The notes below the pieces were generated by a model that worked only from the letters and a program-made list of their open reading frames with translations, was not told where the DNA came from and did not search any database. A program made the translations under genes and the position numbers. This document shows positions 8,219-16,148 of a stretch of 64,000 bases of DNA, piece by piece. Origin of the DNA: Fimbriimonadaceae bacterium (GTDB taxonomy: Bacteria; Armatimonadota; UBA10988); NCBI GenBank assembly GCA_020850355.1, contig JADZEX010000081.1, positions 62,001 to 126,000 on the forward strand, in the 5' to 3' direction. Position 1 is the stretch's first letter; every line of letters starts with the position of its first letter.

Positions 8219-9312
8219 GCTACCGCGCCGTCGTGGTCGGTCTCCGGATGGGCCAGGCCCACGCCAAGAGCCTGGCGACTTCGGACCACTTCCACCTGGT
8301 CGGCCTCTGCGACCTGGACCGCGCGCTGGCCGAACGGGTGGCCGCCGCGTTGGGCCAGCCGGCGGTCTACACCGACTACGCCGAGCTGCTGGCGGAGCTG
8401 CAGCCGGAGGTCGTGGCGATTGCCACCCCGACGCAGCTCCACGCGACGCAGACGTTGGCAGCCGTGGCCGCCGGAGCGCGGGCGGTCTGCTGCGAGAAGC
8501 CGATGGCCGTCCAGCCGACGGACGCGCGGGCGATGCTGCAGGCCTGCGAAGCGGCCGGGGTGACGCTGATCGTCAACCACCAGCGGCGCTGTTCCGATGA
8601 TCTGCTGACGGCCCGGCAGTTGATCGCCGACGGCGCGATTGGCGACCTGCTGCAGCTCCGCGGCCAGTGTGCCGGCGATCTGCTGAGTGACGGCACCCAC
8701 GTGCTCGACAGCCTGCTCTACCTGGCGGACGACCGCGAGGCGGCCTGGGTCGCGGGCTGGCTGCACGCCGAGTTCGGCCCGACGCCGCTGCACGGCCACA
8801 CCGCGCCGGGCGTGCGCTTCGGTCACCGGGTCGAGGCCGGCTGCACCGCTGAGGTGCAGTTGGTCGACGGACCGCGCCTCAGCCTGCTCTGTGGCGACGT
8901 CCGCGAGCCGGCGCGCGCCTACCAGGACTACCTGATCGAAGGGACCCACGGCCGCCTCTGGCGCACCGGCGACGCCGACAGCCCGAACCTCTACCTGGCC
9001 GACGGCCACCCCGGCACCCACGCCGCGGGTGTGGTCCAAGGGCGTCTCCAGACAGTCGCCTGCGACGGTGGCCCCTGGCGCGGCGTCGACGGCACCGCCT
9101 GCCGCGGCGGCATCCCGCGGAGCTACGACCTGCTGGCAGCCACCCTCTGTGACGGCGCTACGCACCCGCTGAGCGGCGCCAACAGCCTGCGCAGCTTCGA
9201 GATCCTGACCGCCATCGCCGAGTCCGCCCGCTTCCACCGTCGCCTCACCCCGCCGGTGGCGACGGCCGAGTGGCCGCTGGACTCGATGCTGCGGGCGGGG
9301 GTGTGGGGGTAG
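8215..9312 (+). CDS. Gfo/Idh/MocA family NAD(P)-dependent oxidoreductase
   Basis: A 365-residue protein. The Rossmann domain opens with VVVGLRMGQAHAKS (a G-x-x-x-G variant of the usual GxGxxG). It is followed by the family signature CCEKPMA, with the EKP lysine, and the catalytic DGTHVLDSLLYL (HxxxD-like) in the alpha/beta domain. The start at ATG 8215 overlaps the previous stop and has GGAGGAGG just upstream. Such enzymes oxidise sugars or inositols at a ring hydroxyl. It is the last gene of the epimerase operon. Confidence 0.85.
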   Translation: MSYRAVVVGLRMGQAHAKSLATSDHFHLVGLCDLDRALAERVAAALGQPAVYTDYAELLAELQPEVVAIATPTQLHATQTLAAVAAGARAVCCEKPMAVQPTDARAMLQACEAAGVTLIVNHQRRCSDDLLTARQLIADGAIGDLLQLRGQCAGDLLSDGTHVLDSLLYLADDREAAWVAGWLHAEFGPTPLHGHTAPGVRFGHRVEAGCTAEVQLVDGPRLSLLCGDVREPARAYQDYLIEGTHGRLWRTGDADSPNLYLADGHPGTHAAGVVQGRLQTVACDGGPWRGVDGTACRGGIPRSYDLLAATLCDGATHPLSGANSLRSFEILTAIAESARFHRRLTPPVATAEWPLDSMLRAGVWG

Positions 9313-9385
9313 GGGGGACAGTGGCTGGCAGGGAAAGGAGATGGTCGCCAGCAGTGTAAGCCAGGTCCGGGCGGTGAGGGTGGCG

Positions 9386-10807
9386 ATGTCAGAACTGGTG
9401 GTCGCGCTGGTCGCCGAGGTCGGTACCAACCTGGAGCGCGTGACGGCGCACCTCAAGCGGAAGCTCGGACTGTGCAAGTACGCGGTTGAGGCGCTGAAGG
9501 TCTCCCAACTGGTGATTGAGGCCGAGGCCGGCCTGCAGCCCGCGATCGACCAGCGGGAGCAGGACCGCATCTGGTCTCGAATGAACGCTGGTGACCGCCT
9601 GCGGCGTGACTCCGAGAGGATGGACTACATGGCGCTGGGGATCGCTGCGGCGATCCGGGCCAAGCGCGCCGAAGCCGGACTGGCGAACCAGCCCCTCGGT
9701 CGGAAGGCATTCCTGATCGATTCCCTCAAGAGGCCTGAGGAGGTGGCCCTCCTGCGGGACATCTACGGTCCTGGCTTCTTTCTGATTGGAGTGTCTGCCA
9801 GCGCCGAGACTCGTCGATCCCACCTTGAGAGCCTGGGCGTCAAGGACACCTACGAGTGGAACAAGCTAATGGAGCGGGATCGCCACGGAGAAGAGCCCTA
9901 TGGCCAACGGGTGAGGTCGACGTTCGAACTGGCTGACTTCTTTGTGGAGCTCCATGCCGATGACACAGCCTTGCAGCGGTCTTTGGGTCGGATCGTCGAC
10001 CTGATGTTCGGCCACCCGTTTGAGTCGCCCCGCTTCGATGAGTATGCGATGTTCCTGGCCTTCACGGCGGCGCTCCGGTCGACCGATCTGTCGCGCCAAG
10101 TCGGGGCTGCGATCGCCGTTGGCCGGGAAATCGTGGCGGTCGGCGCGAACGACGTGCCGCGGCCCGGCGGCGGGTTGTACTGGCAGGAAGACATCACAGA
10201 CCCCTCGGAGGATCCGCGCGACTTCGCGCGTGGCCATGACTCGAACCAGCAGGAGCGCCGGCGGATTGCGGAGCGATTGGTCGACGACCTGGGAGAACTC
10301 GATCTGCGGCATGATCGAATGCGGGAGGTGGCCGAGCGCGCCTTGCGGGATGTCACGGAGTACCACCGAGCGGTCCACGCAGAGATGGCCGCGCTGCTGG
10401 CGTGTGCCCGGATGGGCCAGGGAACGCAGGGCGGCACCCTCTACTGCACCACCTACCCGTGTCACAACTGCGCCAAGCACATCATCGCGGCTGGACTGTC
10501 GCGGGTGGTCTTCGTCGAACCCTATCCCAAGAGCCACACAGCGGATCTCTATGGCTACGCCCTCAGTGGGCCCGGTCAGGCTGTGCAGTTCGTACCGTTC
10601 ACCGGCGTCGGCCCGCGACGGTTCTTCGATCTCTTCTCGGTCGGCCTGGGCGCTGGTGAGAAGCTGATCCGCAAGCACCAGGACGGTCGCGCAGTGCAGT
10701 GGGAGGAGCAGACCGCCAAGCTCCGAACACCGCTGCTGCCGACTTCGTTCTTGGATCGCGAGCGAGCGGCGGCGTCGCTGTTCGGGACAGCCCAGAAGGA
10801 CAAATGA
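9386..10807 (+). CDS. AvcD-like anti-phage dCTP/dCMP deaminase
   Basis: A 473-residue two-domain protein. The C-terminal half is a zinc cytidine-deaminase fold with HAEM (H331, E333) and PCHNC (C359, C362). The N-terminal half begins ELVVALVAEVGTNLERV and aligns by eye with the NTPase-like domain of AvcD-type defence proteins, though I see no GKT/GKS Walker A. AvcD enzymes deplete dC nucleotides on phage infection and in Vibrio are held inactive by the AvcI RNA. The start at 9386 follows GAGGG by 6 nt and begins like relatives; an upstream ATG at 9341 directly abuts AAGGAG and is less likely. It overlaps a 64-residue gene by ATGA. Confidence 0.8.
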   Translation: MSELVVALVAEVGTNLERVTAHLKRKLGLCKYAVEALKVSQLVIEAEAGLQPAIDQREQDRIWSRMNAGDRLRRDSERMDYMALGIAAAIRAKRAEAGLANQPLGRKAFLIDSLKRPEEVALLRDIYGPGFFLIGVSASAETRRSHLESLGVKDTYEWNKLMERDRHGEEPYGQRVRSTFELADFFVELHADDTALQRSLGRIVDLMFGHPFESPRFDEYAMFLAFTAALRSTDLSRQVGAAIAVGREIVAVGANDVPRPGGGLYWQEDITDPSEDPRDFARGHDSNQQERRRIAERLVDDLGELDLRHDRMREVAERALRDVTEYHRAVHAEMAALLACARMGQGTQGGTLYCTTYPCHNCAKHIIAAGLSRVVFVEPYPKSHTADLYGYALSGPGQAVQFVPFTGVGPRRFFDLFSVGLGAGEKLIRKHQDGRAVQWEEQTAKLRTPLLPTSFLDRERAAASLFGTAQKDK

Positions 10808-10998
10808 TGGCACCAGAACCGGCTACTCCAGCGACCTTCGATATGCATCGCTGGCGAGAGCAGCTCCGGGCATCCTGCGAGTCAGCGCGGCAAGAGGTGG
10901 CCGACTGGCCGGCTTGGAAGCGCGATGGCAGTTCCACCGCCGCACTTCGCGAAGCCGACGCCAGGGCATCCCGCCAAAGCCAACCCGCCAGCCCTTAG
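10804..10998 (+). CDS. Small protein coupled to the deaminase (64 residues, unknown)
   Basis: It starts inside the deaminase stop (ATGA, with a second ATG at 10807). The middle, MHRWREQLRASCESARQEVA followed by DWPAWKRDG, is predicted helical and amphipathic with regularly placed Trp. The C-terminus is polar and probably disordered. I do not recognise a family. Strict coupling suggests a partner, for example an inhibitor or stabiliser of the deaminase; this is inference. In Vibrio the regulator is an RNA instead. Confidence 0.6.
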   Translation: MMAPEPATPATFDMHRWREQLRASCESARQEVADWPAWKRDGSSTAALREADARASRQSQPASP

Positions 10999-11022: not shown

Positions 11023-12534
11023 CTACTCCTCCAGCCCCCGCTTCGCCAGGCTGAGGCAGAGGTTGACCAGCGTGCGGGCGCCGTAGCCGGTGGCTCCTTG
11101 CGGTTGGTAGCCCTGCTCGGACTTGGCGATGCCGTGGCCGGCGATGTCGAGGTGGGCCCAGGGGGTGCTGCCGACGAACTCCTGGAGGAACATCGCCGCG
11201 CTGCTGGCGCCGCCGCTGGCTTCGCCCGAGATGTTCTTGAGGTCGCTGATGCTGCCGCGCATCAGCTCGCCGTACTCCTCGTCCAGTGGCAGTTCCCAGA
11301 ACTTCTCGCCGCTCTGCAGCCCGACCTGGCGGATCCGTTCCAGGAGCCGCCGGTCGCTGCCGAAGACGCCCGCGTAGAACGGGCCCAAGGCGCGCATGCA
11401 GGCGCCGGTCAGGGTGGCGATGTCGACCACCGGCGCCAGGCCGAGGGTGGCGGTGGCATAGGTCAGGGCGTCGGCCAGGATCAGTCGCCCCTCGGCGTCG
11501 GTGTTGAGGATCTCGACCGACTTGCCGGCCAGGCCGGTGACCACGTCGCCCGGCATGATGCTGTGCGCGCCGACCAGGTTCTGCACGGCGGCGACCACGC
11601 CGGTGACGTTCAGCGGCACCCGCAGCCGGGCCAGCGCGCCCATCGCGCCGAGTACCGCGGCGGCGCCGGACATGTCGCCCTTCATGGTCATCATGCTGTC
11701 AGCGGACTTGATGCTGAGGCCGCCCGAGTCGAAACAGACGCCTTTGCCAACCAGACCCAGGGTGGGCGCGTCCGTGGCGCCGCCGTGGTGCTCCAGCACG
11801 ATCAACGCTGGCGCGGCTTCGCTGCCGCGGTTGACCGCCAGCAGCAGGTGGCAGCCCGCCGCCCGCAGCGCCGCCTCGTCCAACACGGTACACTGTAGCC
11901 CGGTTTCGGCGGCCAGCGCGCGGGCGGCCGCGGCGAGGTCGACCGGACGCATCTCGGACGGTCCGGTGTTGACCAGATCCCGTGCCAGGTTGGTCGCCGC
12001 GGCCTTCGCCTCGCCCACCACCAAACCGCGCTCGATGGCCTGGCCGGCCGCTGCGTCGAGGCTGTAGACGTGCAACTCCGGCGCGTCCTGGTCCGCCGGC
12101 TGGCGGTAACGGTCGAAGCGGTACTCGGCCAGCAGCGCCGCTTCGACGACCGTCTCGGCGGCCTGCACCGGCTCCAACATGCCCTCGCCACTGGCTCCCG
12201 GCAGGGCCACCACGATGCGCTGCGCGTGCTCGCCGCGGACGGCTCGCCAGGCGGCGCCGACGGCCCGCCGGACGACCTCGAGAGTGACCAGGTCGGGCTT
12301 GCCAAGCCCCACGGTGACGACCCGCCGCAGTGCCGCGCGCGGCGTCTGCACGACCCGCACGGTACCCCGTTGGCCGCTCAACGCACCACTGGCCAGCAGC
12401 TCGCCCAGCAGCCCGTCGAGCGTCGTGTCGACCGCCGCCGCGGCGCCCAGCAGCCCGGCGTCCTGGTACACCGCCACCACCAATGCATCGGCCGACAGGG
12501 CGTCGACCGGACCAGCCACACTGCGCAAGATCAT
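11023..12534 (-). CDS. pepA: Leucyl aminopeptidase (M17 family, PepA)
   Basis: A 503-residue cytosolic aminopeptidase that removes N-terminal residues using two metal ions. The family signature NTDAEGRLILADAL is intact. The metal and catalytic stretch GKGVCFDSGGLSIK followed by MKGDMSGAA is also complete, including the first catalytic Lys. The N-terminal regulatory domain is full length. The start at 12534 has AGGTG 5 nt upstream. The gene ends 24 bp from the convergent small gene. Confidence 0.95.
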   Translation of the reverse strand: MILRSVAGPVDALSADALVVAVYQDAGLLGAAAAVDTTLDGLLGELLASGALSGQRGTVRVVQTPRAALRRVVTVGLGKPDLVTLEVVRRAVGAAWRAVRGEHAQRIVVALPGASGEGMLEPVQAAETVVEAALLAEYRFDRYRQPADQDAPELHVYSLDAAAGQAIERGLVVGEAKAAATNLARDLVNTGPSEMRPVDLAAAARALAAETGLQCTVLDEAALRAAGCHLLLAVNRGSEAAPALIVLEHHGGATDAPTLGLVGKGVCFDSGGLSIKSADSMMTMKGDMSGAAAVLGAMGALARLRVPLNVTGVVAAVQNLVGAHSIMPGDVVTGLAGKSVEILNTDAEGRLILADALTYATATLGLAPVVDIATLTGACMRALGPFYAGVFGSDRRLLERIRQVGLQSGEKFWELPLDEEYGELMRGSISDLKNISGEASGGASSAAMFLQEFVGSTPWAHLDIAGHGIAKSEQGYQPQGATGYGARTLVNLCLSLAKRGLEE

Positions 12535-15470: not shown

Positions 15471-16148
15471 ATGGACAGACAGCGCCGCGGCGCCTTTACC
15501 TTGATCGAGCTGTTGGTGGTGATCGCGATCATCGCGATCCTGGCCGCCATTTTGTTCCCGGTCTTCGCGAAGGCCCGCGAAAAGGCTCGGCAGTCGTCTT
15601 GCCAGAGCAACTGCAAGCAGATCGGCCTCGGTCTGATGCAGTACGTCAACGACTACGACGAACGCTACCCCTACGCGCCCTATACCTACCCGGGCGGCGC
15701 GGCTGGCGGGGCCGACAGCCTCGGCTATCTGCTGCAGCCGTACGTCAAGAACAACCAGCTCTGGCGCTGCCCGAGCGACTCGGTCAGCGGCGGGGTGGTC
15801 AATGCCACCTACAAGAACGTCAGCTACGCCTACAACGTGCTCTACCTGGGCGGCACCGGCCTGGCGATGGCCTCGGTCCAGGCGCCGGCCGAGTTGGCCG
15901 CTGTCTGGGGCGCCTGGGGCGGGGGCGCCTACGTGGCTGACCATGTCTGGTCGTCGGCTGGCTCGCCTCGCGAGCGCGGCGAGGGCAACCCCTGGTCGCC
16001 CAACTCGTCGGTCCGCACCGGGCACAACGAGGGCGGCAACTTCTGCTACGCCGACGGTCATGTGAAGTGGCTCGGCACCGGCACCATCGCCGCCGAAAAC
16101 GGCAAGCAGAACGCCACCCCACGCGTCAGCAACATCTTCCAGCCGTAA
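15471..16148 (+). CDS. Type II/IV pseudopilin with H-X9-DG C-terminus (DUF1559-like)
   Basis: A 225-residue protein with a class III prepilin signal: a short basic leader MDRQRRGA, the processing site before FTLIEL, and a hydrophobic helix. The helix ends in [13 protein letters not shown], the shared pattern of this family. The C-terminus has the H-x9-DG motif, ending [12 protein letters not shown] prepilin peptidase should cut before the Phe and methylate it; the protein would sit in the inner membrane or on the cell surface. No pilus assembly genes are nearby. RBS GGAG, 6 nt before ATG. Confidence 0.88.

Follow-up and report, generated by a model that had tools for sequence, protein, structure and literature searches.

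A small WPxWK protein encoded directly behind anti-phage dCTP deaminases and its putative role in their control

The member of the known anti-phage dCTP deaminase family that is encoded in the 64,000-nucleotide stretch of DNA analysed here (the window) has a previously undescribed protein partner, the product of a small gene that overlaps the end of the deaminase gene. As a whole, the pair is best explained as an antiphage module with a restraining small subunit, a reading to which we give an even chance. If it is true, the best-known family of nucleotide-depleting deaminases comes with two designs of control for the same effector, one made of RNA and one of protein, and experiments can directly address how these deaminases sense infection. 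Annotations overlook the partner or list it as "hypothetical," and single-gene tests in this clade therefore omit half of the system. The pair also occurs in Escherichia coli, which makes it testable in the laboratory.

The deaminase and the small gene in the window

The deaminase gene had been picked out from the letters alone by its HAEM and PCHNC motifs, and both motifs and the coordinates proved right when compared with the translation and the window sequence (Table 1). The protein scored 427.7 bits against the NCBIfam family NF041025 (anti-phage dCTP deaminase), above the curated cutoff of 400, which it also passed in the genome search, and 504.8 bits against the PADLOC dCTPase model. These scores place it in the anti-phage dCTP deaminase family, and dC depletion and protection against phages are predicted for it. 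HAEM and PCHNC were invariant across a 52-row alignment of deaminases (alignment A3). The enzyme combines a nucleotide-kinase-like N-terminal half with a zinc deaminase C-terminal half. A kinase-like N-terminal half is supported, as the NF041025 alignment starts at residue 3 of the window deaminase and at position 1 of the family model, and as residues 9 to 214 in the structure model of a relative (a homologue rather than the window protein) align with the adenylate-kinase-like structure 3lw7 (Z 16.3, rmsd 2.5, 170 aligned). Residues 220 to 448 of the same model align with the dCMP deaminase 2w4l (Z 18.0), and both alignments lie in the deaminase part of the model rather than in its partner part.

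Table 1. Features of the deaminase locus (positions within the window)
Feature	Position	Strand	Basis
Predicted anti-phage dCTP/dCMP deaminase, 473 aa	9386..10807	+	NF041025, PADLOC dCTPase, Pfam PF00383
HAEM zinc/proton-transfer motif, residues 331-334	10376..10387	+	translation
PCHNC zinc motif, residues 358-362	10457..10471	+	translation
AGAAGGA, putative Shine-Dalgarno-like element ahead of the small ORF, within the 3' end of the deaminase gene	10794..10800	+	sequence; function inferred
ATGA overlap of small-ORF start and deaminase stop (TGA 10805-10807)	10804..10807	+	sequence
Small partner protein, 64 aa (63 from second ATG at 10807)	10804..10998	+	held-out profile, conserved position in relatives
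Partner core, residues 15-40: amphipathic helix and WPAWK turn (WPAWK 10906-10920)	10846..10923	+	alignment A2, models of relatives

The deaminase and the small gene stand alone, flanked by a Gfo/Idh-type oxidoreductase gene (end at 9312) and, on the opposite strand, a leucyl-aminopeptidase-like gene (end at 11023); both neighbours were named by eye. Elsewhere in the window, positions 15471-16148 encode a prepilin-like secreted protein of a type that we take to be common in Armatimonadota and Planctomycetota and that may hint at the phylum of the host.

For the small gene, both the ATGA overlap and the 64-residue frame had been read correctly, and the second ATG is better spaced from AGAAGGA than the first. 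The description of its product as a Trp-rich amphipathic helix was fair, with tryptophans at W17, W35 and W38 and a helix in the models of relatives. In alignment A2 the residues of the family signature W35-P36-x-W38-K39 were invariant or nearly so (W35, P36, W38 and K39), and across relatives the pattern is F..hL..A...V..WP.WK, followed by a variable tail. The models of relatives give the core as a helix, the WPxWK turn and a short helix.

The small ORF is almost certainly a real gene, and the pair a real pair. A held-out profile trained on Pseudomonadota partners only gave the window's small protein 27.1 bits (E 2.5e-6), while the best of 11,740 background ORFs reached 11.2 bits. Among relatives from the window's own phylum, a comparable ORF follows the deaminase in L009 and L010 and was weak in the same test (9.9 and 12.4 bits, respectively), and a third, L011, gave no score with the held-out profile. 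Among six close groups, the core had a pN/pS of 0.04, 0.10, 0.25, 0.31 or 0.32 in five and of 0.71 in the one that consists of a single pair; the tail was mostly less constrained than the core. The partner is thus under purifying selection in most of the close groups tested. A short ORF in a GC-rich genome with many spurious ORFs could be a chance reading frame, but the margin of the held-out match over the best background ORF, the conserved position and the selection on the protein make this explanation extremely improbable.

No description of the partner family was found in Pfam, NCBIfam, PADLOC or the open-access literature, a search outside which the earliest AvcID/dCTPase papers lie. The 44 partner proteins compared with Pfam and NCBIfam gave no match at convincing E-values, and the search of solved structures with the family likewise gave no convincing match. 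At E-values up to 0.1, 35 of the 44 matched PHROG 38465 and 15 matched PHROG 29728; both are phage families of unknown function, and their records carry no link to a deaminase.

Distribution of the partner along the deaminase family

When homologues were sought beside other deaminases, as the sequence-only reading had proposed, the frame was intact and conserved behind most close relatives. The sample comprised deaminases from 80 bacterial contigs, chosen as the best of 470 relatives, together with those from 29 viral contigs. The partner core immediately followed 54 of the 80 bacterial deaminases and 6 of the viral-contig ones; beyond the 54 there were one natural fusion and one degenerate copy. 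Partner-bearing genomes belong to at least six phyla (Planctomycetota, Myxococcota, Acidobacteriota, Fibrobacterota, Bacillota and Pseudomonadota). With the window included, the partner started between -59 and +6 nt from the deaminase stop in 59 of 61 pairs, 19 of which had exactly the ATGA overlap; starts were the longest listed, and the more negative values are therefore upper limits of the overlap. Mapped onto a tree of 107 deaminases, partner presence required 8 changes, compared with 35 when the labels were shuffled, and a sister clade of 19 rows and the deeper AvcD-like rows had no partner gene. The coupling that had been called strict consequently applies to the window's deaminase clade but not to the whole family, since the AvcD-type enzymes and the sister clade are without the gene; because such partnerless relatives exist, the family as such does not depend on the partner.

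Searches with the partner profile placed it almost exclusively behind deaminases. Each of 39 partner-bearing genomes had one strong match behind its deaminase, and the additional strong matches were second pairs in L167 and L263 and one orphan duplicate, L262. Among 198 genomes of one class, three partner matches had an E-value of 1e-4 or better, and all three were paired; the one true partner match in 369 genomes of another class was paired as well, and four genomes of that class had a deaminase match without a partner match. Six weaker matches in the latter class (E 5e-6 to 9e-4) were antisense or within unrelated ORFs and were judged to be due to chance. The distances between partners correlated with those between their deaminases (r of 0.36 over 42 pairs), and only 2 of 5,000 permutations gave a value as high. 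A rule that the partner occurs only with the deaminase was dropped because of phage orphans and of the orphan L262/L269, in the genome of L107. This orphan (L262:1441-1632, minus strand, in L269, G889:C83:4000-18000) has no deaminase beside it and stands in a defence island, surrounded by genes that by eye are DUF262-like, HEPN-like, a methyltransferase and HsdR-like. At L098:6001-7377, in Morganella psychrotolerans, the deaminase is shortened by an apparent frameshift and the partner ORF behind it is intact. An unrelated small ORF of the type LELDF...EIVRSVEHI overlaps or lies just behind distant viral-contig deaminases (L134/L272, L132/L273, L145, L139 and L275), and these ORFs are perhaps a second small partner family.

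In the partnerless sister clade, the deaminases begin with an additional in-frame domain of some 110 aa at the N terminus, with the pattern FTG..EELK.KL..L.G.W....KKVLR..GG..NW..STGTI.FQGK, and they keep all catalytic motifs in alignment A3. Some enzymes have both this domain and the partner, and most partnered ones, the window's included, have the partner alone. Among deaminases without the extra N-terminal domain, the partner was present in 44 of 51 as counted by script. The seven exceptions were the fusion L069, the degenerate partner of L050, a contig end in L086, an in-frame stop in L101, another N-terminal extension in L114 and in L115, and L080, which alone remains once the six others are accounted for. 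The N-terminal domain and the partner may be alternative means of control, in a pattern that follows clades and is not made of independent cases. The extension of L115 gave a weak match to a cold-shock domain (E 0.002, below the Pfam cutoff), and L114 is likewise extended. By eye, the deaminases with the 110-aa domain often stand directly behind an HsdS-like gene (L068, L070, L076, L081, L082, L089, L061 and L052), and in L068 the next gene is HsdR (by Pfam), which puts the deaminase inside a type I restriction operon.

Copies in phages and mobile elements

The partner core also occurs by itself in phages. Two jumbo phages, Erwinia phage Kaldavass and Xanthomonas phage XbC2, encode ORFs of 38 and 37 aa, respectively, that contain little beyond the core (MTDFFKYLEEASKIVESWPKWKQ...), with no annotated deaminase nearby. 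In a scan of IMG/VR the core motif matched 49 contigs, compared with 8 for a control motif with reversed codon order, and the partner profile gave more than 25 bits to 28 of the ORFs. In the phage stretches examined no deaminase was found except in L180, a contig that belongs to the annotated phage set and holds a deaminase-partner pair. The orphan copies are placed, by eye, in small-gene arrays or near terminase genes. Several of the terminase-side orphans (L205, L209, L183, L193 and L228) have a slightly different signature, RA..IV..WP.WKRE..LT, and this small-protein type gave one weak match only in the annotated phage set. We tentatively propose, at somewhat below even chances, that the phage orphan cores serve in counter-defence, and they could then form a new counter-defence class of proteins with fewer than 40 residues; a function of their own for the phage is possible as well.

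In E. coli, the pair was present in 12 of 5,426 complete genomes, with both genes covered over their full length at an identity of at least 99.8%. The one copy inspected lies in a P4-like satellite, beside psu, an ogr/Delta-like gene, an integrase gene and tRNA-Sec. This element (L284:1841-3536) carries the deaminase, annotated as WP_044686932.1, together with the 57-aa partner WP_000021256.1. In Vibrio nigripulchritudo the partner is present in the DNA and missing from the gene table, which is incomplete.

Contact with the deaminase and possible modes of control

The small protein probably binds the deaminase physically, as the natural fusion suggests. In Methylocucumis oryzae (L069) the partner core is fused to the C terminus of the deaminase (SDELTGLIKKLGAHVKQWPNWKKNVLGTF), and the AlphaFold2 model of this fusion had a pTM of 0.91, with pLDDT values of 92, 94 and 80 for the blocks of the partner and two short helices on either side of the WP turn. 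When the pair of L102 was joined artificially by read-through of the stop, the modelled core had pLDDT values of 77 and 84 and the tail values of 31 to 53. These are mean values only, and short helices can score high when unbound, so no docked position is claimed for the partner. Specificity-determining positions, compared between partnered and partnerless deaminases, showed no clustering.

The partner travels with the deaminase through many phyla and occurs alone in some phages, a pattern that suggests a switch for turning the enzyme either off or on. In the reading that we prefer, the two genes would form one antiphage module, in which the first encodes a deaminase of the family that drains dCTP/dCMP and the second a small subunit whose helix-WPxWK-helix core would bind the deaminase, with the variable tail disordered. 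The translational overlap would keep the two proteins in proportion, and the partner would hold the deaminase inactive until infection removed or displaced it, as a protein counterpart of what AvcI is for AvcD; phages with the core alone would keep the deaminase shut with their own copy. We infer inhibition rather than activation as the likelier direction of control, with overall chances about even. Restraint is favoured because the enzyme family is normally restrained, because the tail is disordered and variable, and because phages would gain most from copying a brake. The stronger proposition, that the WPxWK protein is a dedicated brake on the whole deaminase clade and that phages, the two jumbo phages included, carry core copies as inhibitors, is unlikely. 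Against restraint speak the gene order, with the effector first, the existence of partnerless relatives and the orphan partner in a defence island.

The same linkage, overlap, fusion and phage mimics would be expected of a positive subunit without which the deaminase would not assemble or become active, or which activates it upon sensing a phage product, with the phage cores acting as competitive blockers. The effector-first gene order fits such a subunit, as does the nearly obligatory presence of the partner where the extra N-terminal domain is absent. However, a deaminase that has to be restrained needs a brake, for which no other candidate was visible in the window, and the catalytic motifs kept by the partnerless sisters indicate that catalysis does not in general depend on the partner; a positive subunit, the main rival, is possible but less likely than not. 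A phage-derived passenger, or a regulator of expression only (for instance a translational coupling leader or an mRNA stabiliser) that makes no contact with the deaminase, would agree with how common the module is in phages without a deaminase and with the location of some pairs in satellites and viral contigs, but it is made highly improbable by the fusion into one chain in L069, the protein-level conservation seen in pN/pS, the correlated divergence of partner and deaminase and the near absence of the partner elsewhere in bacterial genomes.

Tal et al. reportedly presented the dCTP deaminase in 2022 as a single-gene antiphage system. The NF041025 and PADLOC dCTPase entries also describe one gene, to which the window's clade adds a constant second gene that is unannotated or "hypothetical." In the AvcID system of Vibrio, AvcD is restrained by the labile RNA AvcI, which is shorter than 300 nt, has a minimal form of 171 nt and is lost when transcription is shut off (PMC10511110). 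The two systems share a homologous effector, with a kinase-like N-terminal and a zinc deaminase C-terminal half, and the form of an antiphage module of two adjacent elements. In contrast, AvcD-type enzymes are only about 30 to 35% identical to the window deaminase and fall into a different clade of the tree, and the window deaminase, unlike its AvcD-type relatives, is followed by a gene for a small protein. The space upstream of the window deaminase is 73 nt (9313-9385), compared with the 171 nt of minimal AvcI (PMC10511110). An Rfam scan of the window found only a tRNA, although Rfam may have no AvcI model and an RNA could overlap coding sequence.

By analogy with AvcID, a protein in place of the AvcI RNA is plausible. 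The sequence-only reading had offered a protein partner as a different control design for the same effector; the partner itself was upheld by the 54 relatives and the fusion, but a division into RNA there and protein here is too simple, because no AvcI-like RNA is visible upstream in the nearest clade without a partner, where an N-terminal domain is coded instead. A constant stretch of 327 to 380 nt upstream in the sister clade had been a candidate for such an RNA and was rejected when the alignment showed it to be this in-frame domain; because the stretch codes for protein, an upstream-gap statistic was likewise abandoned.

Other defence systems resemble the pair in its proposed control. In CapRel, RpnL/RpnS (PMC10327210) and Sofic with its short protein (PMC12249575), which are phage-defence toxins that are fused to or regulated by a small protein, a C-terminal segment or short protein, acting in cis or trans, reportedly restrains the effector, and the effector enzymes differ from the deaminase. 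CapRel, RpnL/RpnS and Sofic are likened to the pair by control design, from their descriptions and not by sequence. The pair also recalls type II toxin-antitoxin systems in its two overlapping genes, which share ATGA in the window and keep a conserved arrangement in relatives, and in its small protein partner. Type II antitoxins commonly, but not universally, have a DNA-binding domain, and the antitoxin gene usually precedes the toxin gene; in the pair this order is reversed, with the effector gene first.
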